Positions 9,899 through 44,853 of a stretch of DNA of 46,819 bases are shown in pieces (the stretch's first letter is position 1; every line of letters starts with the position of its first letter). The stretch covers positions 1-46,819 of the forward strand of contig JABGQS010000020.1 in the NCBI GenBank assembly GCA_018648645.1, read 5' to 3'. A program made the translations under genes and the position numbers. The stretch is from Clostridia bacterium. GTDB lineage: Bacteria > Bacillota > Clostridia > Christensenellales > SZUA-584. Below the pieces are notes generated by a model, which was not told the origin of the DNA, searched no databases, and worked only from the letters and a program-made list of their open reading frames with translations.

Positions 9899-10019
9899 GG
9901 GTTATAACCTCCTATATTGGTTGTCTGTGCGGTGCGGGGACGGGCGTTTACACCAATTGTGGATAGCAAGTGCGGCACTTATAAAACTCGTTTTGACAAG
10001 AGCGACGCAAATTCCTTAT

Positions 10020-11795: not shown

Positions 11796-11853
11796 TGGCA
11801 AATCCCCCGTTACGAGTAGGCGTTCTTGGTATATTTTCCAAATAGATGCGAGT

Positions 11854-11862
11854 ATTATACCA
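11854..11862 (-). promoter_or_regulatory. Extended -10 promoter for lipoprotein paralog 2
   Basis: The minus strand reads TGGTATAAT, an extended -10 (TG-N-TATAAT), about 59 bases before the start codon at 11795. No good -35 is seen. Confidence 0.45.
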
Positions 11863-11960
11863 TAAAATTGCGAATAGGTGTTCTAAATTGCGGGTTTTTA
11901 TAGGTTTTTTTGTGTGATTAACGCAAATGGTTTGTCTGAGGCGATTATCCGCCGCGATGT

Positions 11961-11999
11961 AAAAAAAGCAGGGCATCTAAAAATGATTGCCCTGCTTTG
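11961..11999 (-). terminator. Rho-independent terminator after lipoprotein paralog 3
   Basis: On the minus strand AAAGCAGGGCA pairs perfectly with TGCCCTGCTTT over a 12-base loop, followed by a run of Ts. The stem is nearly identical to the one at 13634-13673, showing that the genes duplicated together with their terminators. Confidence 0.85.
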
Positions 12000-12025
12000 T
12001 CGAATGTAGGTCTTTATTAATCGGT

Positions 12026-13525
12026 CTATGGTTCGTATGTCGTAAAAACCCAGTAGCCTCCTTCATATCCTTCTTCCAGGTCGTCATAATATAGAAGGTA
12101 TGAATCTGAATCTGCGACATATTCAATGCGAATCGGGTAGTAGTACTTTTCGTCGGTATTGGTGTATGTCAAGTAGAGATTGCCGCCGTCAATATACCAT
12201 GTACCGATACCTTCCTCGCCGTTTATTGATTCACTAAATGCTCCGTCAGTACTGAATGATAAAACGATCTCATTCATGGAGCCGGTGCTACCATCCGGAT
12301 ATTTGTAATGCAGGTCGTACCATGTACCATTTACAATATTAGAAGTCATATCCGAATCAGATGTGAACGTTGTTGAAGATGTCGGTACTGCGGAAACTTG
12401 ATCGGAAGGGTCCTCACTGAAGACCCAAAACTCAGGATTATCCGGGTTATACACGTACATAAAAGTTGTGCCGCCTTCGGTTTTAAACTCTACCGCCCAG
12501 ACAAAACGAGTACCATCATCATAATCGAGCCATACCTTTGCGTCTTCCAAATACCAAGTACCATAATACGAGTCTCCTTCAAAGATTTCTTTAAAGGTGC
12601 CGTCTGATTTGTAGAGGTATATGGCAGTGTTGAAATCAGTTACTACGCCGTCGGAATCGCTGAAGTAAACGAAGTACCAGTTTACATCCTCTATGGTTGA
12701 GGTAAGCTGCTCATCAGCAGTACCGGGGGCTGATCCGGCGCTATCGCCCATAGAAAATTCTTCTGAAGTGTCGCGGAAGTAGACATATACTCCTGTGGGT
12801 TCCTCCCAAATGAGATAATCAATGCCGCTTCTCTGCTCTAACGTGATTGTTACTTGTCCCTCTTGTCCTTCCGGGGTGACAATAAGGATGGTTGTCTCGT
12901 CTATAACCGACCACTTAAGGGTAATCAAGTACTCGAAATCTCCGTAGAATAGTAGTTCATCGGAGGCTGTGAATTCGCATGCAAGACCCAAGTCATAGTC
13001 CTGCGTTGAGCCTGCCTCGTTGTCTGAACTCTCTTGGCGCCAGAATCCGATCAGCTCGCTTTCGAGAGAGCCTTGCCCAAGCCCTGCAGGGACGAGAGGT
13101 TCGTCCGCAAATTCGATTTGTACTTTTACGGTTGTCACAAATTGTTTCTCTTCGTACTCGCCGGATGGCTGCGTCACCCGTATTTCGAAAATGAAATCTT
13201 GGAAGTAGCCTTGCGCGGTATATTTAGTGTCTTTGTCCGTCTCGTCGGAGAGAGAGATATCGTTGTCATCAAAAAAGTCTTTGTAGAAATCGACCACGTC
13301 ATCAAGGTCATCGCTGACTCCGTATTTGATTGTGATTTCCTCGTCATCACCATCGCTGAAATAGACAATTGCGTCATCCATAATGGGCATATCATCATCG
13401 GGGTAGTTTTTGTCTAGCTTAACACCTTTGGTGTACTCTTCGGGGATAGCGGCGCAGCCAAGCAGCATGGAGCTAAGGAGCAGTGTGACAATAAAGAGAA
13501 ATAATAGTTTGTGTGTTTGTTTCAT
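12026..13525 (-). CDS. Lipoprotein paralog 3 (3 repeat units)
   Basis: The 499-residue protein has its lipobox Cys at 24 (LLGC). The N-terminal domain (IPEEYTKGVKLDKNYPDDD, KYGVSDDLDDVVDFYKDFF) is nearly the same as in paralog 4. Three beta-rich units follow rather than four: the first starts LIGFWRQESSD, the second has YYGTWYLEDAKVW, and the last has GIGTWYIDGGNLYLTY and ends GGYWVFTTYEP. ATG at 13525 is chosen because GGAGG is 8 bases upstream; the TTG at 13540 and the ATG at 13531 fit the ribosome site poorly. Both flanks carry the shared AAAGCAGGGCA terminator. Confidence 0.8.
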   Translation of the reverse strand: MKQTHKLLFLFIVTLLLSSMLLGCAAIPEEYTKGVKLDKNYPDDDMPIMDDAIVYFSDGDDEEITIKYGVSDDLDDVVDFYKDFFDDNDISLSDETDKDTKYTAQGYFQDFIFEIRVTQPSGEYEEKQFVTTVKVQIEFADEPLVPAGLGQGSLESELIGFWRQESSDNEAGSTQDYDLGLACEFTASDELLFYGDFEYLITLKWSVIDETTILIVTPEGQEGQVTITLEQRSGIDYLIWEEPTGVYVYFRDTSEEFSMGDSAGSAPGTADEQLTSTIEDVNWYFVYFSDSDGVVTDFNTAIYLYKSDGTFKEIFEGDSYYGTWYLEDAKVWLDYDDGTRFVWAVEFKTEGGTTFMYVYNPDNPEFWVFSEDPSDQVSAVPTSSTTFTSDSDMTSNIVNGTWYDLHYKYPDGSTGSMNEIVLSFSTDGAFSESINGEEGIGTWYIDGGNLYLTYTNTDEKYYYPIRIEYVADSDSYLLYYDDLEEGYEGGYWVFTTYEP

Positions 13526-13633
13526 GAACATATCCTCCAATATTAGTAGGTTTGTTTGACAATCTGTTGCGAACAGTATATCACACCTTTGCCGATATGT
13601 AGCCTTATTTACTTTAATTTATCCTATTTATCG

Positions 13634-13673
13634 TGAAAAAAAGCAGGGCATCTGAAAGCGATTGCCCTGCTTG
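13634..13673 (-). terminator. Rho-independent terminator after lipoprotein paralog 4
   Basis: On the minus strand AAGCAGGGCA and TGCCCTGCTT pair over a 12-base loop, followed by seven Ts. It is nearly the same stem as at 11961-11999. Confidence 0.85.
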
Positions 13674-13698
13674 TCATATAACCTTTTGGTGTATTGGT

Positions 13699-15195
13699 CT
13701 ATGGTTCGTATGTTGTAAATATCCAGTTGCAGCCTTCGTATCCTTCTTCAAGGTCACCAAAGTATAAATAGTAGGATTCTGATACGGTGTCTTGCTCGAT
13801 GAAGACCGGGTAATAATATGACTCCTCTGATTCTGTATAAAATAGATAGAGGAAACCGTCTTCAACATACCATGTACCCCTGCTGAACACACCGTCAAAT
13901 GTTTCTTCGAAAGTCCCATCGGGGCTAAATATCAAAGCAACCTCTGTCATCGGTTCGGTGCTGCCGTCTGCATATAGGTAGTACAGTTCGTGCCACGTGA
14001 CATCAGTTATGAAGGTTATTATATCAGCATCGGTTGTAAATATTGTCGGGGATGTCGGTACAGTGGATTCGCCGGAAGGGTCGTCGCTGTACAGCCAGTA
14101 GGCCGGCGCTTCTGAGCTGTAATAGTATAAGAAGCGGGTGCCGCCTTCTAATTTGAACTCGACAACCCAGCTGGAGGAAGTGTCATCAGAATAGTCGCAA
14201 TATAGCCAGCCATCCTGCACGTACCAGTTTCCGTATAGCGTTTCGCCATCAAAAGTATCCTCGAGCGTTCCGTCTGAGTAGTAGATGAGCTCGCCTGTAT
14301 AAGTCGAAACGATTTGACCATCGACATCTTTGTAGTGAACGTAGTACCAAGTCACATCCGCGATAGAGGCGGCAAGCTGTTCGTCGGAACTTTGCGGGGT
14401 AGGCTGCGCGTCTCCATCCGCCTCGTAATTCTCGAAAGTATCTAAGAAAAAGACTAGTGTTCCATCAGAATCAACATAGATTAGGTAGTCTTGACCGCTT
14501 CTCCGCTCGAACGTAGCGTTGACCAAATCCTCGGTGCCGTCGTCATACGATACCACGAATGAAGAATCGTCAACCACTGCCCACTCGACTGCGGTAATAA
14601 ACTCAAAGTTGATATATAGATTTAGCGTGCCGTCCGGTAAATACTCATAAGCGATACCATACTCTAAAGCTGAAACTTTGCCGTCAGCGTCCTCGAAACT
14701 CTCCTGCCTCCAAAAACCGATGATGTCGTCCTCCAGCGAGCTTTGCTCGGGCTCAACAGTAGCCTCGGGCACATCCACAAACTCGATTACAACTTTCACA
14801 GTTGTCACAAACTGTTTTTCCTCGTGTTCGCCGGAAGGTTTGGTTACCCTTATTTCGAACATGAAATCTTGGTAGATACCTTCGGCGGTATACTTGGTGC
14901 TTTTGTCTGATTCGTCGGTGAGGACGATATCGTTGTCTTCGAAGTGGTCTTTATAGAAATCGACAACGTCGTCAAGGTCGTCACTGACGCCGTACTTGAT
15001 TGTGATCTCCTCATCGCCGCCTTCGCTGAAATAAACGATTGCATCGTCCATGATCGGCATGTCGTCATCCGGATAGTCGCTGTCCGGCCTTACACCTTTT
15101 GTATACTCCTCGGGAATAACTACGCACCCAAGCAACAGCGAGCAGAGTAGCAGTGTTGATAAAACAAATATGGTAATTTTCTTTGTGTTTTTCAT
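13699..15195 (-). CDS. Lipoprotein paralog 4 (3 repeat units)
   Basis: The 498-residue protein has its lipobox Cys at 24 (LLGC). The N-terminal domain includes IPEEYTKGVRPDSDYPDDD and EIRVTKPSGEHEEKQFVTTVK, almost the same as paralog 3. Three repeat units follow, with IIGFWRQESFED, LYGNWYVQDGWLYCDY and SRGTWYVEDGFLYLFY, ending GCNWIFTTYEP. The ATG at 15195 has GGAGG 9 bases upstream; the ATG at 15201 is only 3 bases from it. The close match of paralogs 3 and 4, including terminators and length, points to the most recent duplication in the array. Confidence 0.8.
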   Translation of the reverse strand: MKNTKKITIFVLSTLLLCSLLLGCVVIPEEYTKGVRPDSDYPDDDMPIMDDAIVYFSEGGDEEITIKYGVSDDLDDVVDFYKDHFEDNDIVLTDESDKSTKYTAEGIYQDFMFEIRVTKPSGEHEEKQFVTTVKVVIEFVDVPEATVEPEQSSLEDDIIGFWRQESFEDADGKVSALEYGIAYEYLPDGTLNLYINFEFITAVEWAVVDDSSFVVSYDDGTEDLVNATFERRSGQDYLIYVDSDGTLVFFLDTFENYEADGDAQPTPQSSDEQLAASIADVTWYYVHYKDVDGQIVSTYTGELIYYSDGTLEDTFDGETLYGNWYVQDGWLYCDYSDDTSSSWVVEFKLEGGTRFLYYYSSEAPAYWLYSDDPSGESTVPTSPTIFTTDADIITFITDVTWHELYYLYADGSTEPMTEVALIFSPDGTFEETFDGVFSRGTWYVEDGFLYLFYTESEESYYYPVFIEQDTVSESYYLYFGDLEEGYEGCNWIFTTYEP

Positions 15196-15267
15196 GTCCA
15201 TTTTCCTCCAATAATATAATGTTCTGTGTGTTGTGATGATATATTTGATTTTTCTAAATATAGTTGC

Positions 15268-29540: not shown

Positions 29541-29631
29541 GGAGAAGTATCGAAGAGGTCATAACGGGGCGCACTCGAAATGCGTTTGTCGGGCAACCGG
29601 CACGTGGGTTCGAATCCCACCTTCTCCGCCA
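29541..29631 (+). tRNA. tRNA-Ser (anticodon CGA)
   Basis: GGAGAAG pairs with CTTCTCC as the acceptor stem; discriminator G and an encoded CCA follow. The anticodon loop CTCGAAA gives CGA, reading UCG. There is a long variable arm (about TTGTCGGGCAACCGGCAC) as expected for serine, and a T-arm GTGGGTTCGAATCCCAC. A terminator follows at once. Confidence 0.95.
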
Positions 29632-29658: not shown

Positions 29659-29676
29659 ATACAATTGTTCAGTTTT

Positions 29677-29801
29677 TACCCTTTAGACATTTCGCCATAT
29701 AGGTATTCAATTATTCTTGATATTAAAAAGCCCTGTAATCAAAGGCTTTATAGCACTAGTTACTATGCAATTATGCTACTTTATATGCATGCTTTAGGGT
29801 A
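29677..29801 (+). repeat. Left copy of a ~126-bp direct repeat flanking the ABC operon
   Basis: It starts TACCCTTTAGACA and ends TGCTTTAGGGTA, so its outer ends are inverted (TACCCT/AGGGTA). A second copy in the same direction is at 36519-36644. The best-conserved blocks are the first 40 bases and the last 50 (ACTAGTTACTA...ATGCTTTAGGGT). It lies 18 bases beyond the tRNA-Ser terminator. It could be the left attachment remnant of an island, or one copy of a small mobile repeat. Confidence 0.6.
29727..29749 (-). terminator. Possible terminator of the ABC operon
   Basis: On the minus strand AAAGCC and GGCTTT pair around an 11-base loop, followed by TT. It lies within the left repeat, about 175 bases past the last ABC gene. 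Confidence 0.35.
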
Positions 29802-29924
29802 CAACTCCCTTTTCCATTAAAATGTAAAAATTCTTTTCTGGATTCATTCTTTTGGTATGGAATTGCAGTGATCGAGCTTATGTCTGCATAGTTGATAAAC
29901 TATAATCGCATTCTGTTGTTTCTC

Positions 29925-30713
29925 CTAATCGCCAAGACCCAGTTCAGCCGCTATTAATTCTCTTGTATGGTTATGTTTTGGGCGTTTTAATACTTGTTCC
30001 GTGTCTCCCTTCTCAATAATTTCACCTCGATACATGACAGCAATGCGTTCGCAAAGGAAGCGGACAACCTTAATATCGTGGGAAATAAACAAGTATGTCA
30101 ATTTCAGCTCCTTCTTTAGTTTAATAAGCAGATTGAGGATTTGACACTGAACAGAAACATCCAGGGCAGACATCGGTTCATCACACACGATAATCTTCGG
30201 TCTGGTCGCTATTGCCCTGGCAATAATAATTCTTTGATTTTGTCCACCGCTCAATTGACCCGGGAATTTCAAACGCTCTGATGATGCGATCCCCACCATG
30301 TTCAGCAGCTTGGTTACTTCCCTGTTCTCCTCACTTATGCTAACAATTTTATGGATTCTCAATGGCTCGCGCAGCAGCTCCTCCACAGTCATTTTATTGT
30401 CCAAAACAGCGCTGCTGTGTTGAAATATAATCTGAATGTCCTTTCTCAGTTTGCGCATGCTTTGCTCATCCAGTTCAGTCAATTCCATACCAAAAAACTT
30501 TATACTGCCCTCATCCGGCTCAACCAATCTCAAAATCATGTTTGCTGTTGTGGTTTTCCCGCATCCGCTCTCACCGATAAGCCCTAAAGATTCTTTGGGG
30601 TATACACCAAAGGAAATATTTTTGACAGCGTCAATTCTACTTTTGGTGTATATATTCCTTCTGACGATAAACTGCTTTGATAAGTTATTTATCTCTAGAA
30701 TCTTTTTACTCAT
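29925..30713 (-). CDS. Oligopeptide-type ABC transporter ATPase (OppF/DppF-like)
   Basis: The 262-residue ATPase has Walker A GLIGESGCGKTTT, the Q-loop region IIFQHSSAVLDN, signature LSGGQNQRI, Walker B IIVCDEP with MSALD, and the H-loop LFISHDIKV. The Opp/Dpp family usually has LSGGQRQR; both ATPases here have LSGGQNQR. The C-terminus is short and ends soon after the peptide-type HNHTRELI. It is the last gene of a four-gene minus-strand operon and should pair with the ATPase at 30764 to power the two fused permeases. Confidence 0.9.
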   Translation of the reverse strand: MSKKILEINNLSKQFIVRRNIYTKSRIDAVKNISFGVYPKESLGLIGESGCGKTTTANMILRLVEPDEGSIKFFGMELTELDEQSMRKLRKDIQIIFQHSSAVLDNKMTVEELLREPLRIHKIVSISEENREVTKLLNMVGIASSERLKFPGQLSGGQNQRIIIARAIATRPKIIVCDEPMSALDVSVQCQILNLLIKLKKELKLTYLFISHDIKVVRFLCERIAVMYRGEIIEKGDTEQVLKRPKHNHTRELIAAELGLGD

Positions 30714-30763
30714 ACACTACCTTCCCAAAAAAATGTATTTGCTTCAACACATAGAAAACTGCG

Positions 30764-31741
30764 TCAAGTATAAATAATGTGATTTGTGCATCTCACTTTC
30801 CTATCGCCCATCACCACTACCTCTGGTATCCGCTTTGCGCACAAATCCAATTTGAATTTGCACCTGTTAATAAACGGACATTCGTCTTCGAATTCATACG
30901 GTGTAGGCGGCATGCCTTCTAGTGAGTACAGTGTCTCTTCGTGATTATCAAGCGAACTCGCGCATTTGATTAGCTCCATAGTGTACGGGTGCAAAGGCGA
31001 ATCTAGGATTTCATTCATCGGTCCTTCTTCGACCGACAGCCCGCCGTACATAACGACAATCCTGTCGCAAAGATACTTCGCGATGTCAAAATCATGCGTG
31101 ATGAAAACAATGGACATCTGATATTTCGTATTGATCTGCAAAAGCAAATCGAGTATCCTTTTTCGTATTGACGCATCAATCGAGCTCGTGGGCTCGTCTG
31201 CAATAAGCAGTTCCGGTTTGCAAATAATGCTTTGGGCTATCATAATCCTTTGATTCTGACCTCCGCTCAGCTGCGCGGGATACATTTCGTAGATTGTCTC
31301 TACGTTATCCAGCCCAACCTCCTTTAACACACTCGCTATTTTTTCTTTAGAAAACGGCAGCTTATGCGCTTTTAGCGTGCCTGCAAGCTGCCTGCCAACT
31401 CGTTTGAACGGATGCAATGCCGAAGCAGGGTTTTGAAATATGTAAGAAATCTTTTTTCCTCTTACTTCAATGAGCTGTTTCTCCTTGAGCTTGGCAAGGT
31501 CTATGTTTTCGAATCGCACTTCACCTGCGTCAATATGACCGTCAGCACTATCGAACAGCTTTACAATCGCGCTCGTGGAGATCGTCTTTCCGCTTCCGGA
31601 CTCGCCAAGAACCCCAACGATTTCGCCCTTCTTTAAACTCAAATCAAATCCGCGTATAATCTGCACGCTTTCGTTTTCGTTTATATACGACACCTTTAAG
31701 TTTTTTACTTCCAACATTTTTTTTGTCATACTCTTTGCCAT
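30764..31741 (-). CDS. Oligopeptide-type ABC transporter ATPase (OppD/DppD-like)
   Basis: The roughly 325-residue ATPase has Walker A GVLGESGSGKTIS, signature LSGGQNQRI, Walker B LLIADEPTSSID and H-loop VFITHDFDIA. Its C-terminal extension carries the Cys motif of Opp/Dpp ATPases (CPFINRCKFKLDLC, then a fourth Cys in VRCTNH). ATG 31741 is preferred (AAAGG 8 bases upstream). GTG 31768, with AAGGA upstream, would add nine residues. It lies 50 bases before the second ATPase gene and 59 bases after the second permease gene. Confidence 0.9.
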   Translation of the reverse strand: MAKSMTKKMLEVKNLKVSYINENESVQIIRGFDLSLKKGEIVGVLGESGSGKTISTSAIVKLFDSADGHIDAGEVRFENIDLAKLKEKQLIEVRGKKISYIFQNPASALHPFKRVGRQLAGTLKAHKLPFSKEKIASVLKEVGLDNVETIYEMYPAQLSGGQNQRIMIAQSIICKPELLIADEPTSSIDASIRKRILDLLLQINTKYQMSIVFITHDFDIAKYLCDRIVVMYGGLSVEEGPMNEILDSPLHPYTMELIKCASSLDNHEETLYSLEGMPPTPYEFEDECPFINRCKFKLDLCAKRIPEVVVMGDRKVRCTNHIIYT

Positions 31742-31800
31742 ATGCAAGCCTTTGCAGATGGTCGCCACCTCGTTTCCTTACGCTTTTGCCAACTCACGGC

Positions 31801-34062
31801 TTAATAATCAATTTCGTTAATTACTTTGAACAAAATACTCCCGATTTCATAAATACTGTGCTTGCCTTCGCCTTGCTCACCGGAGCCGATAATAATCGAT
31901 GCGATACCTCTGGTCCAAAACATCGCATTGTCCGCGTCACTGGCTACGTAGTAATGCTCGTTTTCAATCTCGATTGTTTCAAGCCCTTCGTAGAGTATCC
32001 CACGCTGGTTCAGCCCCTTCTCAAACTGATGCGCGATGCTCCATGCGTATTGGCGGGTTATCGGTGCCTGCACAGCGCTGAACACAATTTGGTCAAACTG
32101 CGCTTTTTCCAGATCGGTAAGATCAAAGTATATTCTTACTTTAGCCGAACTGTACGGGAAATCTTCACTAATTGGGTATGTGCCGTTATATACCTCTTTT
32201 TGCGTACCATCCAAAAACATGAATATCAGAGCCTTGTTTTTATCGTATGATGCGCAGAGTACTTCCATCAAGTTAAGATTAAACTGCAGCACTTCGTTGC
32301 CGTCATCAATCAAGTAATTGTAGTTTAGCCCAATGAGTATTGCGTCGCTGTCCTGTGTCCAATTTTCGTTTTTATAGATACCGACTATATTAGTTCCCTC
32401 ATTTTTCATTGGCATAAGAGTCGCGGACAAATCGAGCTCAACCCGGCTGTTCTGTGCAAGCTCTACTGCGAGCTCGACACTAACCAGCACCACATAAAAA
32501 TCTTCACTCTGCTCGACAAACAGGTTGCTGACTTCTTCCCCATCGCGCGCGACTAGAATGAAGCCCTTTATGTTTACGCTGCTGCTAATGCTCTTAATTA
32601 TATATTCAATCGCAGCATCTTGGTAATGCTGTTTGTCTATTAAAACAAAGCTGTCAATATACTTGCTGTATCCTTCGCCGTTAAACAAATCGTCTTTGGT
32701 GGCGTCGTATACGATACCTGAAATCTCAGCAGCCCCGGACGAAATAAATGCGTAATCTTCGTTCAGTTTCAGCGAAACATCGCTTTTTGTGCTCATGCGG
32801 AAAGTGTGCTCAACAAGGACGCTTGACGCTTCAATCTCATAATTTATGAAATAGCTGTCTCCTTCTATCGGCGCCACATTGAGCTCTCGCATTTTGTCCG
32901 TTATGATAGTCGCAGTATTGCCGGACGCCGGAGTCCCGATTAAAACTTGCTCGTATTCCATATCGTAGCTGGCAACTTTATTCACTTTATACTTATTGAT
33001 GTTAATTAGATATGGAGGCAGTATCAACGATGCGATTAGCACTACGGTAACTGCAACCTTGACCTTTGACGATTTGCCAAAGTTTCTCCACATGCCGACA
33101 AAGTCGAATGTCAATATCTTTCGCATAGTCGGAATGATATTGGAATCCTTTTTTTGCATCACTTTTCTTAAACCTTCTCCAAACAGGTTGAACCCCAGAA
33201 CGCTGATAAAAAACGCGAGTGCCGGAAACAACACCGCCCACGGCGCAACCCCGAGCAGGCTTCTCGACGTGCTGAGCATGCTTGCCCATTCCGGTTCAAA
33301 ACTGATGTTAAAAAAGGTGACATTGCCAAAGTCCGTACTTGCGACGAATTGGAGATTACCTACGAACACACTAAAAATTCCGAGTTTCATTATCAAAGAA
33401 AGCGAGCGCGCAATCTCCATAAAATACAGCACAATTAATTCGGGTGCCAAATGTGGTATAACGTTCTCTACCGCTATTCTCGATCTCTTTTTGCCGATCG
33501 CAACTTCACTTTTTATAAAGGGCTGACGGTTAATTGCCTCAACCCTCTCCATGATCAGATGACCAAGCTTGGGCCAGCCAACGAAGGAAAGCACCACAAC
33601 GAATGAAATAATCGACCTTGCTCTGTCCATCTGTGCAAACATGTCAAATTTGAGTATTATAAAGCTGAAAATCACGGCGGGAATAGCAGAGAATACGATG
33701 TTGAGTTTTTTAATGATAAACTTGCTGACCTTGTGCCCAAACCCGGCGCTGATGGCGAGCGGCACCGCTATTGCGAAACTGCCAAGTGCAACAAGCAAAC
33801 CAAGCAGGACTGTCAATCTGGTTCCGAACAGAATATAACTGTATATATCTCTTCCCATGTCATCGCTGCCGAGTATAAACTCGCCGGAGGGCGCAAAGGG
33901 GGCTCTATCCACAATCAAGCTGCCCGTCTCGTCATACGAAAAGATCAAGCGCTGTAAATTGTATGGGCTTTTGTCGGTGAGCAGATTCGGAAAAAGCATC
34001 ACGATCAATATCAATATCAGTATTATACATCCGATTATCAGAGGCGTGTTTAATCTCTTCAT
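31801..34062 (-). CDS. DppC-like permease fused to a C-terminal M28-peptidase-like domain
   Basis: The 753-residue membrane protein starts like a DppC/OppC permease. One span is near 8-26. The signature LGSDDMGRDIYSYILFG comes at about 63-79, then five more spans and an EAA loop (SEVAIGKKRSRIAVENVIP) at about 185-205. The permease part ends near 310. A further span at about 342-362 is followed by some 390 residues outside. That part has the outline of an M28 aminopeptidase with inserted PA-type region (SDAILIGLNYNYLIDDGNEV near 570-590). The zinc motif AHxD reads LNYN, so peptidase activity is not expected. The start overlaps the previous gene by four bases. Such a fusion is not a standard ABC arrangement. 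Confidence 0.8.
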   Translation of the reverse strand: MKRLNTPLIIGCIILILILIVMLFPNLLTDKSPYNLQRLIFSYDETGSLIVDRAPFAPSGEFILGSDDMGRDIYSYILFGTRLTVLLGLLVALGSFAIAVPLAISAGFGHKVSKFIIKKLNIVFSAIPAVIFSFIILKFDMFAQMDRARSIISFVVVLSFVGWPKLGHLIMERVEAINRQPFIKSEVAIGKKRSRIAVENVIPHLAPELIVLYFMEIARSLSLIMKLGIFSVFVGNLQFVASTDFGNVTFFNISFEPEWASMLSTSRSLLGVAPWAVLFPALAFFISVLGFNLFGEGLRKVMQKKDSNIIPTMRKILTFDFVGMWRNFGKSSKVKVAVTVVLIASLILPPYLININKYKVNKVASYDMEYEQVLIGTPASGNTATIITDKMRELNVAPIEGDSYFINYEIEASSVLVEHTFRMSTKSDVSLKLNEDYAFISSGAAEISGIVYDATKDDLFNGEGYSKYIDSFVLIDKQHYQDAAIEYIIKSISSSVNIKGFILVARDGEEVSNLFVEQSEDFYVVLVSVELAVELAQNSRVELDLSATLMPMKNEGTNIVGIYKNENWTQDSDAILIGLNYNYLIDDGNEVLQFNLNLMEVLCASYDKNKALIFMFLDGTQKEVYNGTYPISEDFPYSSAKVRIYFDLTDLEKAQFDQIVFSAVQAPITRQYAWSIAHQFEKGLNQRGILYEGLETIEIENEHYYVASDADNAMFWTRGIASIIIGSGEQGEGKHSIYEIGSILFKVINEIDY

Positions 34063-36239
34063 TTCCTCACCTCGTGCTTCAGCGGATTAGCAAATTTCGC
34101 GAATATCCGGACTATCCACGTAAATAATATGTACATACAGGCGATGACCAAGATGATTACGAGAAACTGGTAATATGCCTTTTTTGAGTAGAAAAAGATG
34201 AGATAATAGCCCACGCCCAAATAGCGGAATAGAAATTCTACAACAATCAAATTCGATATAATCATTGTCATGATTGTCGGTAAAGAGTCTATCGCTTTAA
34301 AAAGGCTTGCAGGCAGCAGTTCATTGAAGTAAATTCTTCTTTTGCTTAAGCCCTTGGCTTTTGCATTCTTGATATAGTCTTTTTTCGACTCCTCTTGGGT
34401 AGTGATATATGTAATCCTGGATATGTATATGATAGGGATTATACAGAGCGTTATCAGCGGAATTATAAAATCGTTGATGGGGAGCGCTTCTTTTGCTTGG
34501 GGGAAATTCTGAGAATAGAATATGCTGACAGTCCATCCAAGCAGCACGAGCAGCACGTCAGGGATCGAAAAGGCGATAAGGGTACCAAGTGATTCGATCT
34601 TTTGTCTCTTAGAGCGGTAGCCGGCGTACAGACCGGTGCTGATACCTATCACGACAGCAAGTACGAGTGTTGATAATATCAGCCATAAACTTTTGGAAAA
34701 CGAATCAAGTATTATCGAGAAATTCTCCTCTACATCCGCAACTGTGTCTGTTCCCGTGCTGAATATGTTGCTGATAAACGATACACTCTTATTAAAACTC
34801 TTAGAGATTTTATCCCAAACGTTTAAAAACCCAAAACCTGTGTCTTTATAGATTTCTTTTTTTATGTAATTAGTCAATACCAGTGAAGCGTTATTAAGGC
34901 TATTTATATCTACGTTTTCGATATTGTCTTCATAGACGTTTTTGAACAAACCGGCATTGCCGAAGGTGATTAGCCGGACATCGCTGTATGAAAAGTACTC
35001 GAACTGTTCGTCTTTGACTTGAGACATATCGAGCACAATTGCTGCAGCTTGTGAATGTTCAACAATGCTATCTCTTAGCTCCAGGCTGTTTGTGTTCGCC
35101 GGCGTAATTGCCGTGCCTTCTCGAACACTCCTCCCGATTAGCTCAAGACTAATCACGGTTGACTTTTCCAGCGGGTATACCGGGTTTCTGCCATAATACT
35201 GCGACCCGGCGTACTGCTGTAGCTGTCCATTAAAGCATATAAAATATATCGTTTGATAAGGCAAGTTTTTTTGCGCAGCGACAACCCGTGCTGCTTCAAG
35301 CAATGTCGCGACGCCGCTTGAGCTGCCGACTGCACCGGGGAAGTATCCTCCGTCGGTGCCCATGCCAACGCCGTCGATATTCGCGGTAATCAGCAACACC
35401 TCGCCGCCAGAACTCCTGCCGTCAAGCTTGCCAATAATGTTCGATGTGTTCACGATTGGATACTCTATTTTCGCACTAAGAATTACATTGCTTATGATCT
35501 TTTGCGTGCGCTCATCGCCGTCAGTCCCGACCGTGTTGGTATAGTTTTTTAAGTACTCATACATATCGAAAGAGATGTACCCAACGCCGATAGACTCTCC
35601 GGTTTTCCCCCACGTGCCTACTGTCTTTTCAGTTTCGTAAACATTTGGAGCCTCATTCGGGGCAACATCCGCACAACAAAAAACTCCTTTTCCACCATTT
35701 TGAATAACGTAATCAACTTGGCTTGCATTGAGCTCGCCAGATTCGATAATCACAATCCTGTCTTTGATAATGTCGGGATTGACAAGAAACAACGTATCTT
35801 CTAGCAGAACGACTTCACCTGTAAAATCAATGCTCCCACCGTTCATGTATGACAGCAAATTGTAATCCTCGTACAAAACGAATTCCTTAATTACCTCGCG
35901 CTCGTGCGATATAATTGCAAACGAAGCGTTTTCGTCGATATTTGGAACCATTACGGTAAAGGGCTGATAGTACTGCTCATTAATTCCACCCGGCGCAACA
36001 CCAATTTCTCTAAATTGTTTTTCAATATATTCTAAGGTTTCCTCGTTGCCGATTGTGCCGGTTTTTCTGCCGGAATAAGTAGCAGAAGTGAACTCCTCCA
36101 CATCAGAATAGATATGATCCACATTTAATACGGTTTCGTCAAATGAGTTTGTGAATTGAAAAGAGTTGAAAAGTATAAAAAAAGAAAGCAGAAGTAACAC
36201 AGGGATCACTATTCCGAGTAGCCGTTTCTTTGCTTTCAT
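34059..36239 (-). CDS. DppB-like permease fused to an N-terminal M28-peptidase-like domain
   Basis: The 726-residue protein begins with one span (about 8-27) and an extracytoplasmic M28-like domain with an inserted PA-like region (about 90-260). The zinc-binding blocks are recognisable but altered. TANIDGVG (285-292) stands for AHxD, GAVGSSSGVATLLEAAR (302-318) for DNASG, and FNGQLQQYAGSQYY (336-349) for EEQGLxGSxxY, so three ligand positions are lost. From about 540 to the end follows a DppB-type permease half with the EAA loop NAKAKGLSKRRIYFNELLP. The typical N-terminal permease span is replaced by that of the peptidase-like part. ATG 36239 is chosen for AGGAA 7 bases upstream. It is the first gene of the operon. 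Confidence 0.8.
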   Translation of the reverse strand: MKAKKRLLGIVIPVLLLLSFFILFNSFQFTNSFDETVLNVDHIYSDVEEFTSATYSGRKTGTIGNEETLEYIEKQFREIGVAPGGINEQYYQPFTVMVPNIDENASFAIISHEREVIKEFVLYEDYNLLSYMNGGSIDFTGEVVLLEDTLFLVNPDIIKDRIVIIESGELNASQVDYVIQNGGKGVFCCADVAPNEAPNVYETEKTVGTWGKTGESIGVGYISFDMYEYLKNYTNTVGTDGDERTQKIISNVILSAKIEYPIVNTSNIIGKLDGRSSGGEVLLITANIDGVGMGTDGGYFPGAVGSSSGVATLLEAARVVAAQKNLPYQTIYFICFNGQLQQYAGSQYYGRNPVYPLEKSTVISLELIGRSVREGTAITPANTNSLELRDSIVEHSQAAAIVLDMSQVKDEQFEYFSYSDVRLITFGNAGLFKNVYEDNIENVDINSLNNASLVLTNYIKKEIYKDTGFGFLNVWDKISKSFNKSVSFISNIFSTGTDTVADVEENFSIILDSFSKSLWLILSTLVLAVVIGISTGLYAGYRSKRQKIESLGTLIAFSIPDVLLVLLGWTVSIFYSQNFPQAKEALPINDFIIPLITLCIIPIIYISRITYITTQEESKKDYIKNAKAKGLSKRRIYFNELLPASLFKAIDSLPTIMTMIISNLIVVEFLFRYLGVGYYLIFFYSKKAYYQFLVIILVIACMYILFTWIVRIFAKFANPLKHEVRK

Positions 36240-36447: not shown

Positions 36448-36552
36448 TTATTGCTTTTCTACTGCTTTCCTGAGCAATTCTGCCAGTTCCCCCAATAGTC
36501 GTGAAATACCCTTTATTTTACCCTTTAGACAATTCACTATATTTGTATTCAA
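36448..36552 (-). CDS. Tiny ORF or C-terminal gene remnant overlapping the right repeat
   Basis: A 34-codon open frame (TTG at 36552) ends GISRLLGELAELLRKAVEKQ. The last 20 residues look like a genuine helical protein tail, and the first part is encoded by the repeat copy. It may be the end of a lost gene, possibly a recombinase that sat beside the attachment site. No family is recognised. Confidence 0.25.
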   Translation of the reverse strand: MNTNIVNCLKGKIKGISRLLGELAELLRKAVEKQ

Positions 36553-36644
36553 TTATGCAGAATAAGAAAAGAGATCAGTAAATAAGAGCTTTTTCGAACT
36601 AGTTACTACGTAATTATACTGCTTTATATGTATGCTTTAGGGTT
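36519..36644 (+). repeat. Right copy of the ~126-bp direct repeat
   Basis: It starts TACCCTTTAGACA and ends ATGCTTTAGGGTT and matches 29677-29801 in the same orientation, with strong conservation at both ends and divergence in the middle. It continues directly into a tRNA- or tmRNA-like 3' end. A further TTACCCTTTA lies at about 36721. The rest of 36300-36518 holds only the promoter and the tiny frame above. Confidence 0.6.
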
Positions 36645-36665
36645 CAAGTCCTGCTGTCTCTACCA
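36639..36665 (+). other. tRNA- or tmRNA-like 3' end fragment
   Basis: AGGGTTCAAGTCCTGCTGTC followed by TCTACCA has a T-loop (TTCAAGT), a 3' T-stem strand, a 7-base acceptor strand, a discriminator A and CCA. It resembles the 3' end of Bacillota tmRNA (TTCGACTCC-...-CCACCA). The 5' part of the RNA is missing, as expected where an integrated element regenerates or displaces an RNA-gene end. Confidence 0.5.
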
Positions 36666-37000: not shown

Positions 37001-38104
37001 TTATAATGCTATACCCGTGGCAATCGTCTTGTATTGCCCTTCTTCCGCTAACCAATGCGCCATAAGCAAAGTTCCGTCTTTTAATTTTACAGCACCGGGC
37101 ATGCCAAACTTTAAGTAGGCGAAAATTGCAGCCGTAGTATCATTCGCTGTGATTAATTTTGACTGGGGCTGCCAAAGTATGGCTTCCTCGGTAATGTTCC
37201 AAGCTCCGTTACTAAAATCCACTAAATAGCCGTATATTCCGGGCTCGTCAGTATCCTTGCGCATAGTATGTAAAGAGAACATACTCGACCCGGAGAGATG
37301 ACAAACAAACGGTGTTTGTCCGTTGATACCGGTATCAAACGGTTTCGAAAAAGTACGGCCATTGTCGCGGGAAATGGTGTAATGATTATTCAATGTCTTT
37401 TCGTTAATAGTATCTTCGTTCCATGCAATTATGATTGTGGTACCGTCGCTTAATTGACAAAGCCGCTGCTCATAACAGGTTATGGAATCTCCCGGGAATT
37501 CCATACACACTACATCGTCGTTCCATGTTTTACCTTGGTCATCGGAGCGAAGCAGCCGCCCGCACATGCGGCTGGTCATTTCGGCTTCCCAGTTTGGGAA
37601 ACCTGTAATAGGGGTAACCCAGCTTCCGTTCTGCAATACGGTAATTGGAGCGGGGGCTTCGACATGACGACCCCAAGTACAAGCAATTTCCTGCCGGTCA
37701 GACCAAGTTATCCCTTTGTCGTCTGAGATGCTAAAGAATACTATATCATCGAGCACGCCTCCGTTATCGGGGTTTGCAATCGCCTGCTCAGGATCGTCGC
37801 GAATGAAACCGTATCCAAACGCAATTAGCCGACCATCGGGAAGGAGCGTTATTTTAGCGCAGTCTGATACCGGGAAAGGATAATCTTTTTTGCCCAACGA
37901 CCATGGTTCACCCCATGTTCTTCCGCCATCAGTACTTCGAGAAATGCTGGCAGTACCGTCAACACTTTCAAATGCTTCTCCCATTTGATGAGTTGCCAAA
38001 ATAGAGCCGTCTTCCAATTCGCAAAGATAAGGAAAAGAAGAATTTTTGGCATGTAACTGAGGTCGCGGATTGTCCCAAATTGGGTTTGAAAACAATATTT
38101 CCAT
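37001..38104 (-). CDS. Sialidase-fold (BNR/Asp-box) protein
   Basis: The 367-residue protein is a six-bladed sialidase-type beta-propeller with four Asp boxes: STDGGRTWGEP (about 56-66), SDDKGITWSD (about 126-135), SDDQGKTWND (about 186-195) and SRDNGRTFSKP (about 245-255). There is no signal peptide, so it should work in the cytoplasm, unlike most sialidases. Members of this family act as exo-sialidases or on other sugars; the Arg triad cannot be assigned with confidence. The ATG at 38104 has AAGGCAGG upstream. It lies 99 bases downstream of the large FG-GAP protein gene on the same strand. Confidence 0.8.
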   Translation of the reverse strand: MEILFSNPIWDNPRPQLHAKNSSFPYLCELEDGSILATHQMGEAFESVDGTASISRSTDGGRTWGEPWSLGKKDYPFPVSDCAKITLLPDGRLIAFGYGFIRDDPEQAIANPDNGGVLDDIVFFSISDDKGITWSDRQEIACTWGRHVEAPAPITVLQNGSWVTPITGFPNWEAEMTSRMCGRLLRSDDQGKTWNDDVVCMEFPGDSITCYEQRLCQLSDGTTIIIAWNEDTINEKTLNNHYTISRDNGRTFSKPFDTGINGQTPFVCHLSGSSMFSLHTMRKDTDEPGIYGYLVDFSNGAWNITEEAILWQPQSKLITANDTTAAIFAYLKFGMPGAVKLKDGTLLMAHWLAEEGQYKTIATGIAL

Positions 38105-38203: not shown

Positions 38204-40891
38204 TCAGTCGATTGTAACTCTTTTTAGGCGTGGCGAATTGCACAAAGCCGGCGAGTAAAATTCTGCTTGATACTGAATTATCTTTGAATGCCTGGGGACA
38301 GGAATTATGGTCCCGTTTTCAAGTGCATCGCTCCAAATACCATCGTCGAAGCGGATACGCATAAACAGCTTCGATGTATTAGGCTCTTCCGCAACCCAGT
38401 AGATATGCACAGTTTTATCATCATCAAGTTTGATTGGACAAGATGTATAATACTCGCTCTCGCTGCGGTCAAAAACGTTAGCTTGGCTTTTCGTTGTGAA
38501 GTTGTGCGGACCTATTCCCAAGTACTTGTGCGGATGGTCGTAGTCCAGCCCGTCAGGTCCGTTCATCAACAGATAAGAATCCAGGATGTGCCCTTTATCC
38601 TTGCGATGGCAGCAAACGAACAGATCAGGGTAACCGTTGCGGGTCAAATCTACAGGAATCGATGCGACCGATGAATCAAAGATGAAATTTTCGGTATCAT
38701 CAAATTGAAAAGAACCGTGTTGGTCATTGCGGATTATCCTTAGTGGCCCGGTTCTGGTTTCAGTACTTGAATAATGAGGCAATATCATGTCTAGCCAGCC
38801 GGTATTATACATATCAGCAAAAGAAACATACCCGGTCGTTGCACCTGTTTCCCAGCGTATTTGCTTATCGGCAGGGAATCCTTCTTCATCATTCCAATCG
38901 CGTAAAATGTAGACATACGACGGAATATTAAAATAGTGTCCGGAAGAGGTGCAGATAACTTCAAGTTTGCCGTCCTTGTCATAGTCAACAGCTGTGACGC
39001 CAAAATGGAATGCCTTATTATCCTCATGCCCTTTTAAAGTGAACAAGCGGTGGGAATCGGGGTCGAAGCCATCTTTTGTTCCTAAGAAAACACCAAGTCT
39101 TCCATCGCCATCACTGTAAATTAGATCCTGATAACCGTCTGCGTTAATATCAGCTAACACCACAGATTGGGCAGTAGCGATGTAACACGGCAGCAGTTGA
39201 CGATTTTCCTCCTTATAGCCATCAGCACTGCCGTACCAGACATACACAGAAGAATTGAGCTCTTCTTCATTTTTGCTGTATACCCACGGGAGCATGATTA
39301 TATCCAAATATCCGTCATGGTTGAAATCGCCGACCAATACACCGCCAAGTTCTTTTCTTAGTAGTTTAGGATGTACGAGCTCTTGAAAGTTTTTGGGATC
39401 CGGACCATTTTCGGTTCCTTTAAAAACACGAATTGTACTGTGCGTGGATGCTACAAACTCTACTTCGCCGTCATTGTCGGTATCTGAGCCCGTATACCCG
39501 TAACAACTTGTAATAATGGGGAAGTCTATGCGGTTTTCCTTAAGATACTGGAAATCTTTGTTACCGAGATATAGGAATGCAGGAAATTCCGGATCGTGCT
39601 GTATATGGCCGGTTATTGTGTTGCAAATATACAATTCAAATTTTCCGTCATGGTCAAGGTCGTAAAACTTTGCATCACGAACACCAAAGGTATCAAAGGC
39701 AGTCGTGTGCTCAATATCAAATCGATTATCACCCTGATTATGGAATAACAGCGATTGCGAGTCGTACGTCTTTGTTTCATCATTGTAAAAACGACCGGCA
39801 AAAATATCATAACTTCCGTCGCCGTTTAAATCGACAGCGGTGACAGCAGTACAGCCGTAACAGTCTATCCTGCGCCAAACAGCATCTAGATCATCAATCC
39901 TTCGTATCTGGACGCCTTCTTTTGTGCCGATTAAAATTTCGTTGTTTCCGTCACCGTCAAAATCAACAAAACAAAGAGGAAGCTCCTTTTTGAAATACAT
40001 GGCATTTTCGCCCTCTATTTCTATGACTTTTTTGTCGTTCTCGGAGAAGGTACCGTTGCGATTCCAGTAGATTGTAATTCTCCCGTTTCCTGTAAGGATG
40101 ACTTCCTTGAAACCGTCTTTATTTAGATCTTGAGCATAAGCTTTTGTTACAAGTGAACACGGCAGTTGCATGGAATTTTCTTTAGAGTAACCATCCTTTG
40201 AACCAAAGAAGATATTAGTATAAACATCATCCGTATAATTTTGTTTATATCCCGCGAAAATAAAATCGGGATAGCCGTCGTTGTTTATATCGGTACAGAC
40301 AAGTGCATCTATCGATAAGCCCTCGAAAGGGAATTCTTCTGTCGCATCACGAAATTTGCGTGGACTTTCCTGTAAATAAACGCGCTGCTTGAATAGGTTC
40401 CCGGTAAAATGATGGTCGTACCAAGACGTTGTGATTACTAAATCCTGCAGCCCGTTTCCGGTTAGGTCGCAAAAAGCAGCTCCGTATGCACCGACGCTTT
40501 TTAGTGCAGTACATTCCTGCGTAAGCCCATCTTTTGAGCCCCAGAAAATATAGCATTCCAAATCACAGGTAACGCCGTTTGCCGCAAAGGTAACTAGAAG
40601 GTCTTCGTATCCGTCGCCGTCTATGTCACACGCAATGGTATTCCAGCTGCAATCGTGGGGAAGCTCGCTGTGCTGCCAGTTGTTTTTTCCGTCTTGTTTA
40701 TATACCGAAACAGGACCTCTCTCTGTATAGCCGTGACTGTTGGGCAGAGCAATATCAAAAATACCGTCATGGTTAAAATCGTTTTCTGTAATCCGGCGTA
40801 CTACTCCGGTTGCATCTACAAAGAGGTTGTCGCCAGAGTTACCAAAAGTTCCTTTGATAAATGCATCAAATCCTTTGTGTATAGTTTTCAT
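38204..40891 (-). CDS. Large FG-GAP/VCBS-repeat beta-propeller protein, leaderless (copy 1)
   Basis: The 895-residue protein consists of about fourteen Ca-binding DxNxDGxxD repeats spaced some 50-60 residues apart, such as NDFNHDGIFDI, CDIDGDGYEDL, TDINNDGYPDF, GDFNHDGYLDI and VDYDKDGKLEV. Most are followed by a blade motif like IFWGSKDG or VWYGSADG. This predicts two linked seven-bladed propellers. A C-terminal beta domain (last about 90 residues, ending SPRLKRVTID) resembles a carbohydrate-binding tail. No signal peptide is present at ATG 40891, which has AAAGGA 9 bases upstream. The frame continues upstream to 40945, but still without a leader. It is a paralog of the gene at 42097. Confidence 0.8.
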   Translation of the reverse strand: MKTIHKGFDAFIKGTFGNSGDNLFVDATGVVRRITENDFNHDGIFDIALPNSHGYTERGPVSVYKQDGKNNWQHSELPHDCSWNTIACDIDGDGYEDLLVTFAANGVTCDLECYIFWGSKDGLTQECTALKSVGAYGAAFCDLTGNGLQDLVITTSWYDHHFTGNLFKQRVYLQESPRKFRDATEEFPFEGLSIDALVCTDINNDGYPDFIFAGYKQNYTDDVYTNIFFGSKDGYSKENSMQLPCSLVTKAYAQDLNKDGFKEVILTGNGRITIYWNRNGTFSENDKKVIEIEGENAMYFKKELPLCFVDFDGDGNNEILIGTKEGVQIRRIDDLDAVWRRIDCYGCTAVTAVDLNGDGSYDIFAGRFYNDETKTYDSQSLLFHNQGDNRFDIEHTTAFDTFGVRDAKFYDLDHDGKFELYICNTITGHIQHDPEFPAFLYLGNKDFQYLKENRIDFPIITSCYGYTGSDTDNDGEVEFVASTHSTIRVFKGTENGPDPKNFQELVHPKLLRKELGGVLVGDFNHDGYLDIIMLPWVYSKNEEELNSSVYVWYGSADGYKEENRQLLPCYIATAQSVVLADINADGYQDLIYSDGDGRLGVFLGTKDGFDPDSHRLFTLKGHEDNKAFHFGVTAVDYDKDGKLEVICTSSGHYFNIPSYVYILRDWNDEEGFPADKQIRWETGATTGYVSFADMYNTGWLDMILPHYSSTETRTGPLRIIRNDQHGSFQFDDTENFIFDSSVASIPVDLTRNGYPDLFVCCHRKDKGHILDSYLLMNGPDGLDYDHPHKYLGIGPHNFTTKSQANVFDRSESEYYTSCPIKLDDDKTVHIYWVAEEPNTSKLFMRIRFDDGIWSDALENGTIIPVPRHSKIIQYQAEFYSPALCNSPRLKRVTID

Positions 40892-40947
40892 TATCGCGTT
40901 TCCTTTCATATTTTTGTTTACAACACAGCAGCAATCTGCTAACATTA

Positions 40948-42096: not shown

Positions 42097-44853
42097 ATGT
42101 TAAAAAAATGGATTACAAAGGGTTTTGATGATTTTTCGGCAGGAAAATTTGGGAACGGCGGGCAAAATATTTATGTTTCAAAACGAGGCGTGTTGCAGCG
42201 GGTATACCACTATGATGTAAATAAAGATGGTTATTTTGATCTACTGTTTTCAAACGGTCAGGATATGGAGGAGCGAGTACCAGCCTTTTTATACCAAAAA
42301 GAAAAATCAGGGTATGTTCGAAAAGAACTGCCGACTCATGGTGCATATTCGGCTACTGTGGCAGATCTTAGCGGCGAAGGGCATCTTGATCTCATTATTG
42401 CAAATCAAAATGACGGAGCAACATCAAATGTGTGTGCGCAGATTTATCCCGGAAACCCAGAGGGTATTAGTGGAAATTATCTTTTTGAACTTCCGGTCCC
42501 CGATGCAAGAGCGGTTGCGGCGGGTGATTTTAATGGAGATGGAAAGCAAGAGCTGGTTTTTTATTCGGACGGAAAACTTCAGCTGTTTTACCAAAATGAA
42601 AACGGATTTGCGCCTAGGTTTTCTCAAACAATTCCAATTGACGATATTGTTGCCGTGCATGCAGCGGATATAGATAAAGATGGATTTTGTGATTTGTTCG
42701 TAAGGATTGGTGGCGGCAGTCCTCGTGTGTTTTGGGGGTCGCCGGACGGTCTTGATCCAAACCGCAGCTCAACAGTCGGCTCAAATGAGCCTTTCTCCCA
42801 CGATACTATGGGCACTACACTCGGAAGGCCTTCTTATTATTGGGGATGGACTCCAAAGGTTATTGATATAGGAGATGAGCGGTTGTTGTTTCGTGTCGAA
42901 GAGAGCACAGCGGTCTTTTATCGTAATATAAACCGAGAATTTTCACCGGCATTTTGTTTGGATTGTCAAGGTATAGTCTCTGTTGCTTGTGTAGATGTTG
43001 ATCATGATGGATGGCCGGATATTGTTGCTGTCGTCTGCACAGATATCAGCAAGGAAGAGAACTCTATTATCTTTTGGGGTTCAAAAGACGGGTATTCTTT
43101 AAAAAACACTACGGAGCTTAAAACGCAAAGCGCCCGCGATGCAGCTGTATTTGAGGATGAGGACACTTGTATAGCCATATGCCAAGGCAAGACAGATACG
43201 CTGCTGTCTACGCATTCTCTCGTATACAGACTAGATGGTCGTATGATATTAGATTGTACCTCGCTTGAAACGCACGACGCTACCCGCGTGTTTGTTGCGG
43301 GCAGCAGCACTAAACCTCAGCTTATTTTTGTTAATCATGAAGGAGGCCGTACGTGTGCCGATATAAACGCTTATTTGTATTATGGCGGCCCTGACGGGTA
43401 TAACCCGGATCGAAAAGCAGAATTGCCTGCTATGTCGGCTACCGATTGCAATTGCTGCGACTTTAATGATGACGGCTGGGCGGATATTCTGCTTTGTAAC
43501 AGCTCTGATGCCGCTTATCATTTGGATCCGGGGAGTTTTATATATTATGGAAGTCCATCGGGTTTTAAAACAGATAATAAATGCGTTTTACCTACTATAC
43601 GGTGCGTTGGGGCTGCGGTAGGAGATTTTCGTCATAGTGGTTATTTAGATATTGTTATGGCAGGCAGTTATAATGCAGAATTGCTTCTTTTTCACGGTAC
43701 ACATGATGGATTCGATATATCGAATCCGGAGCGCATTTTACTGGATCCGGATTGCGCTGATTATACACCATACAAAGTTAAAACTGCCGATGGCTGGCGA
43801 GAATTTGACAACGATGCAAGGGCGAAAAAATATCGGGAGCCAAGGTATCTGTATACAGCGGATTTTAATAACGATGGCTGGCTTGACATTTTTGTGTCGG
43901 AGATACTTGGGGATTATTCATACATTCTTTGGGGAGGCCCAGAAGGATTCTCTTTGGATAATTCGCAAAGGGTAATGACAGAAAATGCAGTCTGTGCAAA
44001 CGCTGCAGATTTTACCGGTAATGGCTGGCTTGATTTGGTAGTAGGCAGTTTTTATAGCTCTGTGCCGGATAGCGAAGCAAAATTGCATTATGATTCGTAT
44101 GTAACTGTTTACTATGGCGGACCAAACGGATATTCAGAATACAGGAAAACACAACTTCCGGCAAATGCGGCGACATCAATTGCTGTAGCTGATTTTAATA
44201 ACGATGGATTTTTAGATATTTTCGTTACGTCATACCATAACGGTCGATCCCGAGACACGGATGCGTTTTTCTATTGGGGAGATGCGCAGGGAGCATTTGA
44301 TCCGACACGAAGGTCACGCTTGTTTAATCATTCCGGAAGCGGTTGTGTTGCTGCTGATTTTGATGAAAATGGATATATCGATCTTGCCGTTGCAAGCCAT
44401 AAGGCATACGGTAACCATAAGTGTGATTCTTTTGTATTTCGAAACGGACCGGACGGGTTTTTGAAGGACGGCACACTTAGGTTACCTACAGAGGGTCCGC
44501 ATGGTATGATGCCGGTAGATCCCGGAAACATATTAGATCGAACAAATGAAGAGTATTATATTTCTGCTATTCACTCTTTTGATGAGGTTGTTAGTTTGAA
44601 AAGTTTGTCATTCAAAGCGCAATTGCCGCCTAAAACGTGGGTGAAATTATGGATACGTGCCGGCAATACGAAACAAGAACTGCTCGGAAAACCATTTACG
44701 GGGTCTACCGACGAATACTCGTGGTATACAAACGGCGATAATATTGTTTGTTCGACGTGTAAATACTCTCAGTTTAAACTAAGTTTAGGCTCAGTAAACG
44801 GAGCTGCGTCACCACGTCTTTCTGAAGTGATATTAGATTATGAATCAGCTTAA
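42097..44853 (+). CDS. Large FG-GAP/VCBS-repeat beta-propeller protein, leaderless (copy 2)
   Basis: The 918-residue paralog of the protein at 38204 begins almost identically (KGFDDFSAGKFGNGGQNIYV against KGFDAFIKGTFGNSGDNLFV). It carries about eleven Ca-binding repeats, including YDVNKDGYFDL, GDFNGDGKQEL, VDVDHDGWPDI, ADFNNDGWLDI and ADFDENGYIDL, interspersed with WGSPDG and YYGGPDG blades. The C-terminal beta domain contains TWVKLWIRAGNTKQ and ends SPRLSEVILDYESA. No signal peptide or membrane span is seen. The ATG has TTGGAG upstream and its own promoter. It is oriented away from the AraC gene. Its partner or ligand is unknown; a polysaccharide-related role is inferred from the neighbours. 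Confidence 0.8.
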   Translation: MLKKWITKGFDDFSAGKFGNGGQNIYVSKRGVLQRVYHYDVNKDGYFDLLFSNGQDMEERVPAFLYQKEKSGYVRKELPTHGAYSATVADLSGEGHLDLIIANQNDGATSNVCAQIYPGNPEGISGNYLFELPVPDARAVAAGDFNGDGKQELVFYSDGKLQLFYQNENGFAPRFSQTIPIDDIVAVHAADIDKDGFCDLFVRIGGGSPRVFWGSPDGLDPNRSSTVGSNEPFSHDTMGTTLGRPSYYWGWTPKVIDIGDERLLFRVEESTAVFYRNINREFSPAFCLDCQGIVSVACVDVDHDGWPDIVAVVCTDISKEENSIIFWGSKDGYSLKNTTELKTQSARDAAVFEDEDTCIAICQGKTDTLLSTHSLVYRLDGRMILDCTSLETHDATRVFVAGSSTKPQLIFVNHEGGRTCADINAYLYYGGPDGYNPDRKAELPAMSATDCNCCDFNDDGWADILLCNSSDAAYHLDPGSFIYYGSPSGFKTDNKCVLPTIRCVGAAVGDFRHSGYLDIVMAGSYNAELLLFHGTHDGFDISNPERILLDPDCADYTPYKVKTADGWREFDNDARAKKYREPRYLYTADFNNDGWLDIFVSEILGDYSYILWGGPEGFSLDNSQRVMTENAVCANAADFTGNGWLDLVVGSFYSSVPDSEAKLHYDSYVTVYYGGPNGYSEYRKTQLPANAATSIAVADFNNDGFLDIFVTSYHNGRSRDTDAFFYWGDAQGAFDPTRRSRLFNHSGSGCVAADFDENGYIDLAVASHKAYGNHKCDSFVFRNGPDGFLKDGTLRLPTEGPHGMMPVDPGNILDRTNEEYYISAIHSFDEVVSLKSLSFKAQLPPKTWVKLWIRAGNTKQELLGKPFTGSTDEYSWYTNGDNIVCSTCKYSQFKLSLGSVNGAASPRLSEVILDYESA

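Follow-up and report, generated by a model that had tools for sequence, protein, structure and literature searches.

How might a peptide transporter of the Opp/Dpp type work when its operon carries no gene for a substrate-binding protein (SBP) and both of its permeases are fused to a peptidase-like domain? The accepted view is that type I peptide importers cannot do without a Venus-flytrap binding protein, which captures the substrate and switches on the ATPases. The locus that raises this question lies in the window, our term for the whole 46,819-nucleotide stretch that was analyzed (Clostridia bacterium, contig JABGQS010000020.1). At positions 29925 to 36239 of the reverse strand, four co-directional open reading frames form one tight operon, in the order P1, P2, DppD, and DppF.

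P1 (34059 to 36239, reverse strand) is a DppB/OppB-type permease with a pseudo-M28 domain. Its longest open reading frame starts at 36299, ends at 34059, and encodes 746 amino acids. We prefer the ATG at 36239 as the likely start, giving about 726 amino acids, because it is preceded by a good ribosome-binding site, aggaagtatagtATG, and agrees with where the relative in L032 starts; the first-pass annotation had chosen the same codon. P2 (31801 to 34062, reverse strand; 753 amino acids) overlaps P1 by 4 bases and is a DppC/OppC-type permease of six transmembrane helices (TMs), followed by a TM7 and a C-terminal pseudo-M28 domain. Pfam BPD_transp_1 matched P1 with an E value of 8.8e-17 and P2 slightly below the cutoff (25.1 of 26.4 bits), and NCBIfam placed P2 with the DppC/OppC permeases (Opp2C/Opp4C/DppC, E 1e-21 to 1e-29). 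The two ATPases follow on the same strand. The DppD/OppD type (30764 to 31768) has intact Walker A/B, LSGGQ, and H-loop motifs and an oligo_HPY C-terminal region with cysteines, and the DppF/OppF type (29925 to 30713) is short, at 262 amino acids, with its motifs likewise intact. Pfam detected ABC_tran in both, and oligo_HPY in full in DppD and weakly in the short DppF. The operon has the BPD_transp_1 permease pair and the two ATPases with intact motifs that define the Opp/Dpp type, and open reading frame calls, Pfam, and NCBIfam agree with its initial description as four genes for two such ATPases and two permeases.

The domain on P1 (34847 to 36146, reverse strand), which includes a PA-like insert, was identified as M28 by Pfam and by hhalign. 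Pfam Peptidase_M28 matched residues 287 to 422 of the 746-residue frame (E 8.8e-14), and the domain aligned from end to end with free M28 proteins from related genomes (hhalign 100%, E 1.3e-50). Among PDB chains, the P1 ectodomain profile matched Vibrio leucyl aminopeptidase, the transferrin receptor, and YwaD. The C-terminal domain of P2 (31804 to 32991, reverse strand) is more degenerate and was placed by profile matches; searched alone against Pfam it gave no match. Its profile aligned with the P1 domain (hhalign 99.2%), with free M28 (92%), and weakly with YwaD in the PDB (E 1.6e-4). It also matched the DppC fusions of another family along their full length (739 columns), and all three of those fusions that we ran against Pfam exceeded the M28 cutoff. 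By sequence comparison, then, both fused domains are M28 homologues, P1 directly and P2 through its relatives, as had been proposed from the letters alone. AlphaFold2 models built from an alignment of the window and L033 only had pLDDT values of 37.2 (P2 domain) and 36.7 (full P1).

We compared the fused domains with free M28 proteins at seven ligand and catalytic positions, which we take to be H97, D99, D117, E151, E152, D179, and H256 in Vibrio aminopeptidase numbering. At these positions the free relatives (n = 6) have H D D E E D H; the window P1 has N D G Q L E N and P2 has N N - T Q T I, with the last two positions of P2 less surely aligned. In P1 the degenerate motifs span 35133 to 35384 on the reverse strand, as ANIDG (35370 to 35384), GAVGSSSG (35313 to 35336), FNGQLQQ (35214 to 35234), and LELIG (35133 to 35147); those of P2 are GLNYNYL (32311 to 32331) and FLDGT (32203 to 32217). 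The first-pass annotation had read ANID, GAVGSSSG, and NGQ in P1 and LNYN in P2 correctly, and the ligand table bears out its view of both domains as degenerate: neither domain has the Zn ligands H, D, E, D, and H together with the catalytic E. None of the 26 tabulated fused copies keeps a working set, which rules out an active peptidase. One P1 domain, from genome G462, is intermediate, with D117 and one glutamate retained. Some free M28 relatives with an intact site adjoin fused genes in the same genomes.

Both pseudo-M28 domains are predicted to be extracytoplasmic. Hydropathy and charge, under the positive-inside rule, put the P1 and P2 domains outside the membrane, with four Lys/Arg residues before TM1 of P1, four after its TM2, and ten in the P2 stretch before TM7. 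This supports, as a prediction, the extramembrane placement suggested at first. The C-terminal position of the domain on the DppC-type permease also stood, and that on P1 was refined from an N-terminal attachment to the segment between TM1 and TM2. The relatives of P1 have a TM-M28-TM prefix at the N terminus, ahead of the native TM1 of DppB. Compared with these relatives, the window P1 lacks about 80 residues with two TMs (the second anchor and the native TM1), and the parity of the topology is kept.

The same architecture recurs in other genomes. Among 396 genomes of the order, the search turned up a single relative carrying both fusions, namely G048 (a Clostridia metagenome-assembled genome, contig JAFGUF010000027.1), which has the same four-gene operon with permeases 44 to 47% identical to those of the window. 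At the class level, G511, G460, and G462 also have both fusions, G1155 has a complete P1 plus the start of a P2 cut off by the contig end, and G586 and G691 have a normal DppB and a fused DppC. The double fusion is thus present in five further genomes, spanning four families when that of the window is counted. In the family of G586, the P2-domain profile matched 12 of 22 genomes, 11 of which hold a DppC-only fusion; in G473 an assembly gap separates the DppC and M28 parts. Where complete, the DppC-only operons run in the order ATPase-DppB-DppC::M28-ATPase. Recurrence in independent genomes rules out an assembly artifact or frameshift, which had been raised as a way in which the fusion might prove spurious. 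Four genomes of the window's own family gave no match to P1 at E ≤ 0.001, and a plasmid search with the DppC-only C-terminal domain likewise gave none.

The surroundings of these relatives vary. The DppC-only operons in L090 to L094 and L097 occupy a conserved site, judged by eye, with pheST-like genes before them and zapA-like and U32-type-peptidase-like genes after them, and they continue with genes for an HlyD-like adaptor, an ABC ATPase, and a MacB-like permease. In L087 (2 to 7666), L088 (183 to 8907), and L089 (1 to 6750), a DppC::pseudo-M28 gene stands alone: neither DppB nor ATPase genes accompany it, it immediately follows a gene for an intact M28 lipoprotein-like protein, and genes that resemble uvrA/uvrB, as judged by sequence, lie nearby. 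Genome G779 (L054 and L064) has frames of 1533 and 1550 amino acids that begin with a degenerate M28 and PA region. At L056 (490 to 2622), a 711-residue protein has a degenerate M28 region and then several TMs; it falls weakly beside the P1 domains in the tree described below.

One lineage departs from the others in its ATPases. In G462 (L042, 746 to 2526), the LSGGQ signature and the H-loop histidine are gone from both ATPases, and one of the two also lacks the Walker A Thr/Ser, with the fused permeases in intact frames. The ATPases of all other examined members, the window included, are intact. Because these motifs are lost, the complex in that lineage may not pump, so not every member of the family need be a working pump.

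The DppC-side domain is under purifying selection in the DppC-only group. Three close pairs from this group gave dN/dS values of about 0.11, 0.08, and 0.11 for the fusion domain; the double-fusion pairs are saturated at silent sites, and the estimate covers the DppC-only group alone. In some of the DppC-only pairs the domain evolves faster than the permease part. For this group, purifying selection rules out a decaying relic.

The tree used to place the fused domains also contains 16 further M28-like rows; it is unrooted and was drawn at the midpoint. The P2 domains all group together (98/98), and so do the P1 domains (95/87), whose neighbors in the tree are the free intact peptidases (94/86). 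The tree favors a DppB fusion that arose by a second recruitment, separate from that of DppC; under an AU test, a single origin for every fused domain was not rejected (p 0.31). Copying of the P1 domain from the P2 domain within the double-fusion group is likewise disfavored by the tree and not rejected by the AU test (p 0.11). These results bear on the original argument that a fusion mirrored in both halves points to a working pair. That argument is weak, since 11 genomes have the fusion on DppC only, so that a pair is not essential to the family, and a single mirrored event is not what the tree favors.

The operon may also be a newcomer at its present site. An imperfect direct repeat of about 135 nucleotides flanks it on the forward strand. 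The left copy (29674 to 29808) lies just after a tRNA-Ser(CGA) gene (29541 to 29631), and the right copy (36516 to 36651; 79 to 80% identical) runs into sequence resembling a tRNA 3' end. Because these repeats lie beside a tRNA and the four same-family genomes have no match to P1, we suggest that the operon arrived on an element since eroded, with the repeats as a possible integration scar. Elsewhere in the window, two large FG-GAP repeat proteins are encoded on opposite strands (38204 to 40945 and 42097 to 44853), with a BNR-repeat sialidase-like protein beside them (37001 to 38104), and four consecutive proteins of 500 to 596 amino acids (8108 to 15201, reverse strand) have no Pfam match at 1e-5.

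Pfam and a gene survey of the window found no SBP gene in the operon or the window, and none of the related fused operons contains an SBP_bac_5 gene. The window genome has two conventional Opp operons, each with an SBP gene. Its third SBP_bac_5 gene is an orphan on contig C10, where the 16 kb that we read hold no permease, and SBP genes are present somewhere in every fused-system genome tested. The initial statement that there is no binding protein is therefore shown for the operon and the window rather than for the cell. Three double-fusion genomes encode SBP-like proteins of 820 to 845 amino acids, which we considered as candidate partners; the copies in L131 and L132 precede their own ordinary DppB. 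In two species (L119, 529 to 2169, on contig C259 of G1155; and contig C16 of G462), a frame of 544 to 547 amino acids appears to have the SBP_bac_5 halves swapped, with profile positions 209 to 366 before 1 to 209, likely a circular permutation.

The fused systems also lack the part of DppB that meets the binding protein. In E. coli Dpp, a scoop between TM1 and TM2 of DppB enters the cleft of DppA, and without DppA the translocator shows no activity (PMC12136057). We aligned 34 distinct conventional DppBs with 13 from fused systems, leaving out the window P1, which has no native TM1. A TM1-TM2 scoop segment ending in a GLD-like motif was found in all 34 conventional sequences and in none of the 13 others; PGxP in the scoop region was found in 24 of 34 and 0 of 13, respectively. 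This motif pattern was defined after the alignment was viewed, and the alignment itself and the difference in median segment length (107 residues in fused systems versus 118 in conventional ones) are the firmer evidence. In addition, a fused-system DppB aligns with the solved E. coli OppB from residue 82 onward only. Loss of both the SBP gene and the scoop indicates a substitute.

We propose that the substitute is the fused pair, in an SBP-independent Opp/Dpp variant with pseudo-aminopeptidases as tethered receptors, and we give this reading slightly less than an even chance. Two dead M28 aminopeptidase-like domains, tethered by TMs to both permease halves, would stand outside the membrane and replace the mobile Venus-flytrap lipoprotein. 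They would bind a peptide or amino-acid-like ligand and pass it to the permease pore, presumably for import, and the two ATPases would power the pore. A peptide is the presumed ligand because of the parent transporter, the parent enzyme family, and the intact M28 genes that adjoin three lone DppC fusions; the amino-sugar peptide offered in the first-pass annotation found no support. Its idea of a built-in receptor in place of the lipoprotein fits the absent linked SBP and the absent scoop, and binding and import are the parts that we infer.

Those adjoining M28 genes lend themselves to another reading. M28-type proteins often form dimers, and the pseudo-M28 domains could be a docking platform that pairs with an intact secreted M28 peptidase, whose cut peptides would be released into the transporter. 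In three genomes DppC::pseudo-M28 is immediately preceded by the intact M28 lipoprotein-like gene, and the P1 domain is close in sequence to these free peptidases. However, in those three loci the DppC fusion has neither DppB nor ATPase genes with it, and no M28 gene adjoins the window operon, so we regard such docking as unlikely. Nor does a binding protein encoded elsewhere, for example the C10 orphan, readily explain the system, because all fused-system DppBs have lost the segment with which E. coli DppB docks its SBP. An SBP serving in trans, with the pseudo-M28 domains as accessories, would account for three SBP_bac_5 genes against two linked Opp operons in the window genome and for the SBP genes in every fused-system genome tested, but we consider it quite unlikely.

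The remaining readings do without import. Export requires no SBP, and SapBCDF, of the same permease class, has been reported as a putrescine exporter (PMC12772348). The fused systems might send a small molecule or peptide out of the cell, their ectodomains acting as a chaperone at the exit, and the way in which the DppC-only operons run directly into an HlyD/MacA-like adaptor and MacB-like ABC gene set would suit this role. The window operon has no such neighbors, though, and Opp/Dpp permeases are otherwise mostly importers, which makes an exporter, though a live rival, very unlikely in our judgment. Least probable, and only a slight prospect, is a sensor or regulatory complex whose ectodomains bind a ligand and which signals or holds a partner without pumping. 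The G462 ATPases without signature and H-loop residues would allow it, as two species of the genus still have open frames for the fused permeases, but intact ATPases in the window and all other examined members argue against it for the family.

The closest known systems are the Opp/Dpp importers (DppABCDF and OppABCDF), which share the two BPD_transp_1 permeases, the two ATPases, and the gene make-up. The window system differs in having no SBP gene and an M28-like ectodomain on each permease, and the scoop is lost in the fused-system DppBs. We class it as an Opp/Dpp variant rather than a plain member because we looked for a linked SBP_bac_5 gene and a DppB scoop segment and found neither. Clostridia-type peptide importers may have swapped their SBP for dead M28 domains, recruited twice (to DppC and separately to DppB), which would give a new receptor fold and loading mechanism; we offer this broader picture tentatively, leaning somewhat against it. 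If it is true, a fold unrelated to the classical binding protein can stand in for it, and the family offers a natural experiment for finding out at which steps the import cycle really depends on a classical SBP.

Receptor domains fused to permeases, at either the N or the C terminus, are known from OpuA and GlnPQ; in OpuA the substrate-binding domains are covalently linked to the permease (PMC11065425). Both use ordinary Venus-flytrap domains, whereas the domains here are M28 by sequence and not of the Venus-flytrap SBP fold, so that a dead metallopeptidase takes that place. The M28 aminopeptidases themselves (YwaD, Vibrio leucyl aminopeptidase, and free Clostridia-type M28 proteins) belong to the same domain family, with a PA-like insert, and P1 is similar over its full length; unlike them, the fused domains lack the metal ligands and the catalytic glutamate and are membrane tethered to a permease. 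Our literature search for a fusion of M28 and an ABC permease, with most subscription journals outside its scope, found no description. Covalently linked binding domains and dead M28-like receptors are each known separately, and their combination appears undescribed in the literature covered. Nicastrin has an aminopeptidase/transferrin-receptor-like ectodomain and has been described as a substrate receptor of gamma-secretase (PMC4326451). Like the transferrin receptor, it uses a noncatalytic M28-like ectodomain as a receptor; both are eukaryotic and stand outside ABC transporters, which limits the likeness to analogy. If our reading is true, the fused permeases would be a bacterial parallel to nicastrin, in which a dead peptidase-like domain has been turned into a receptor.
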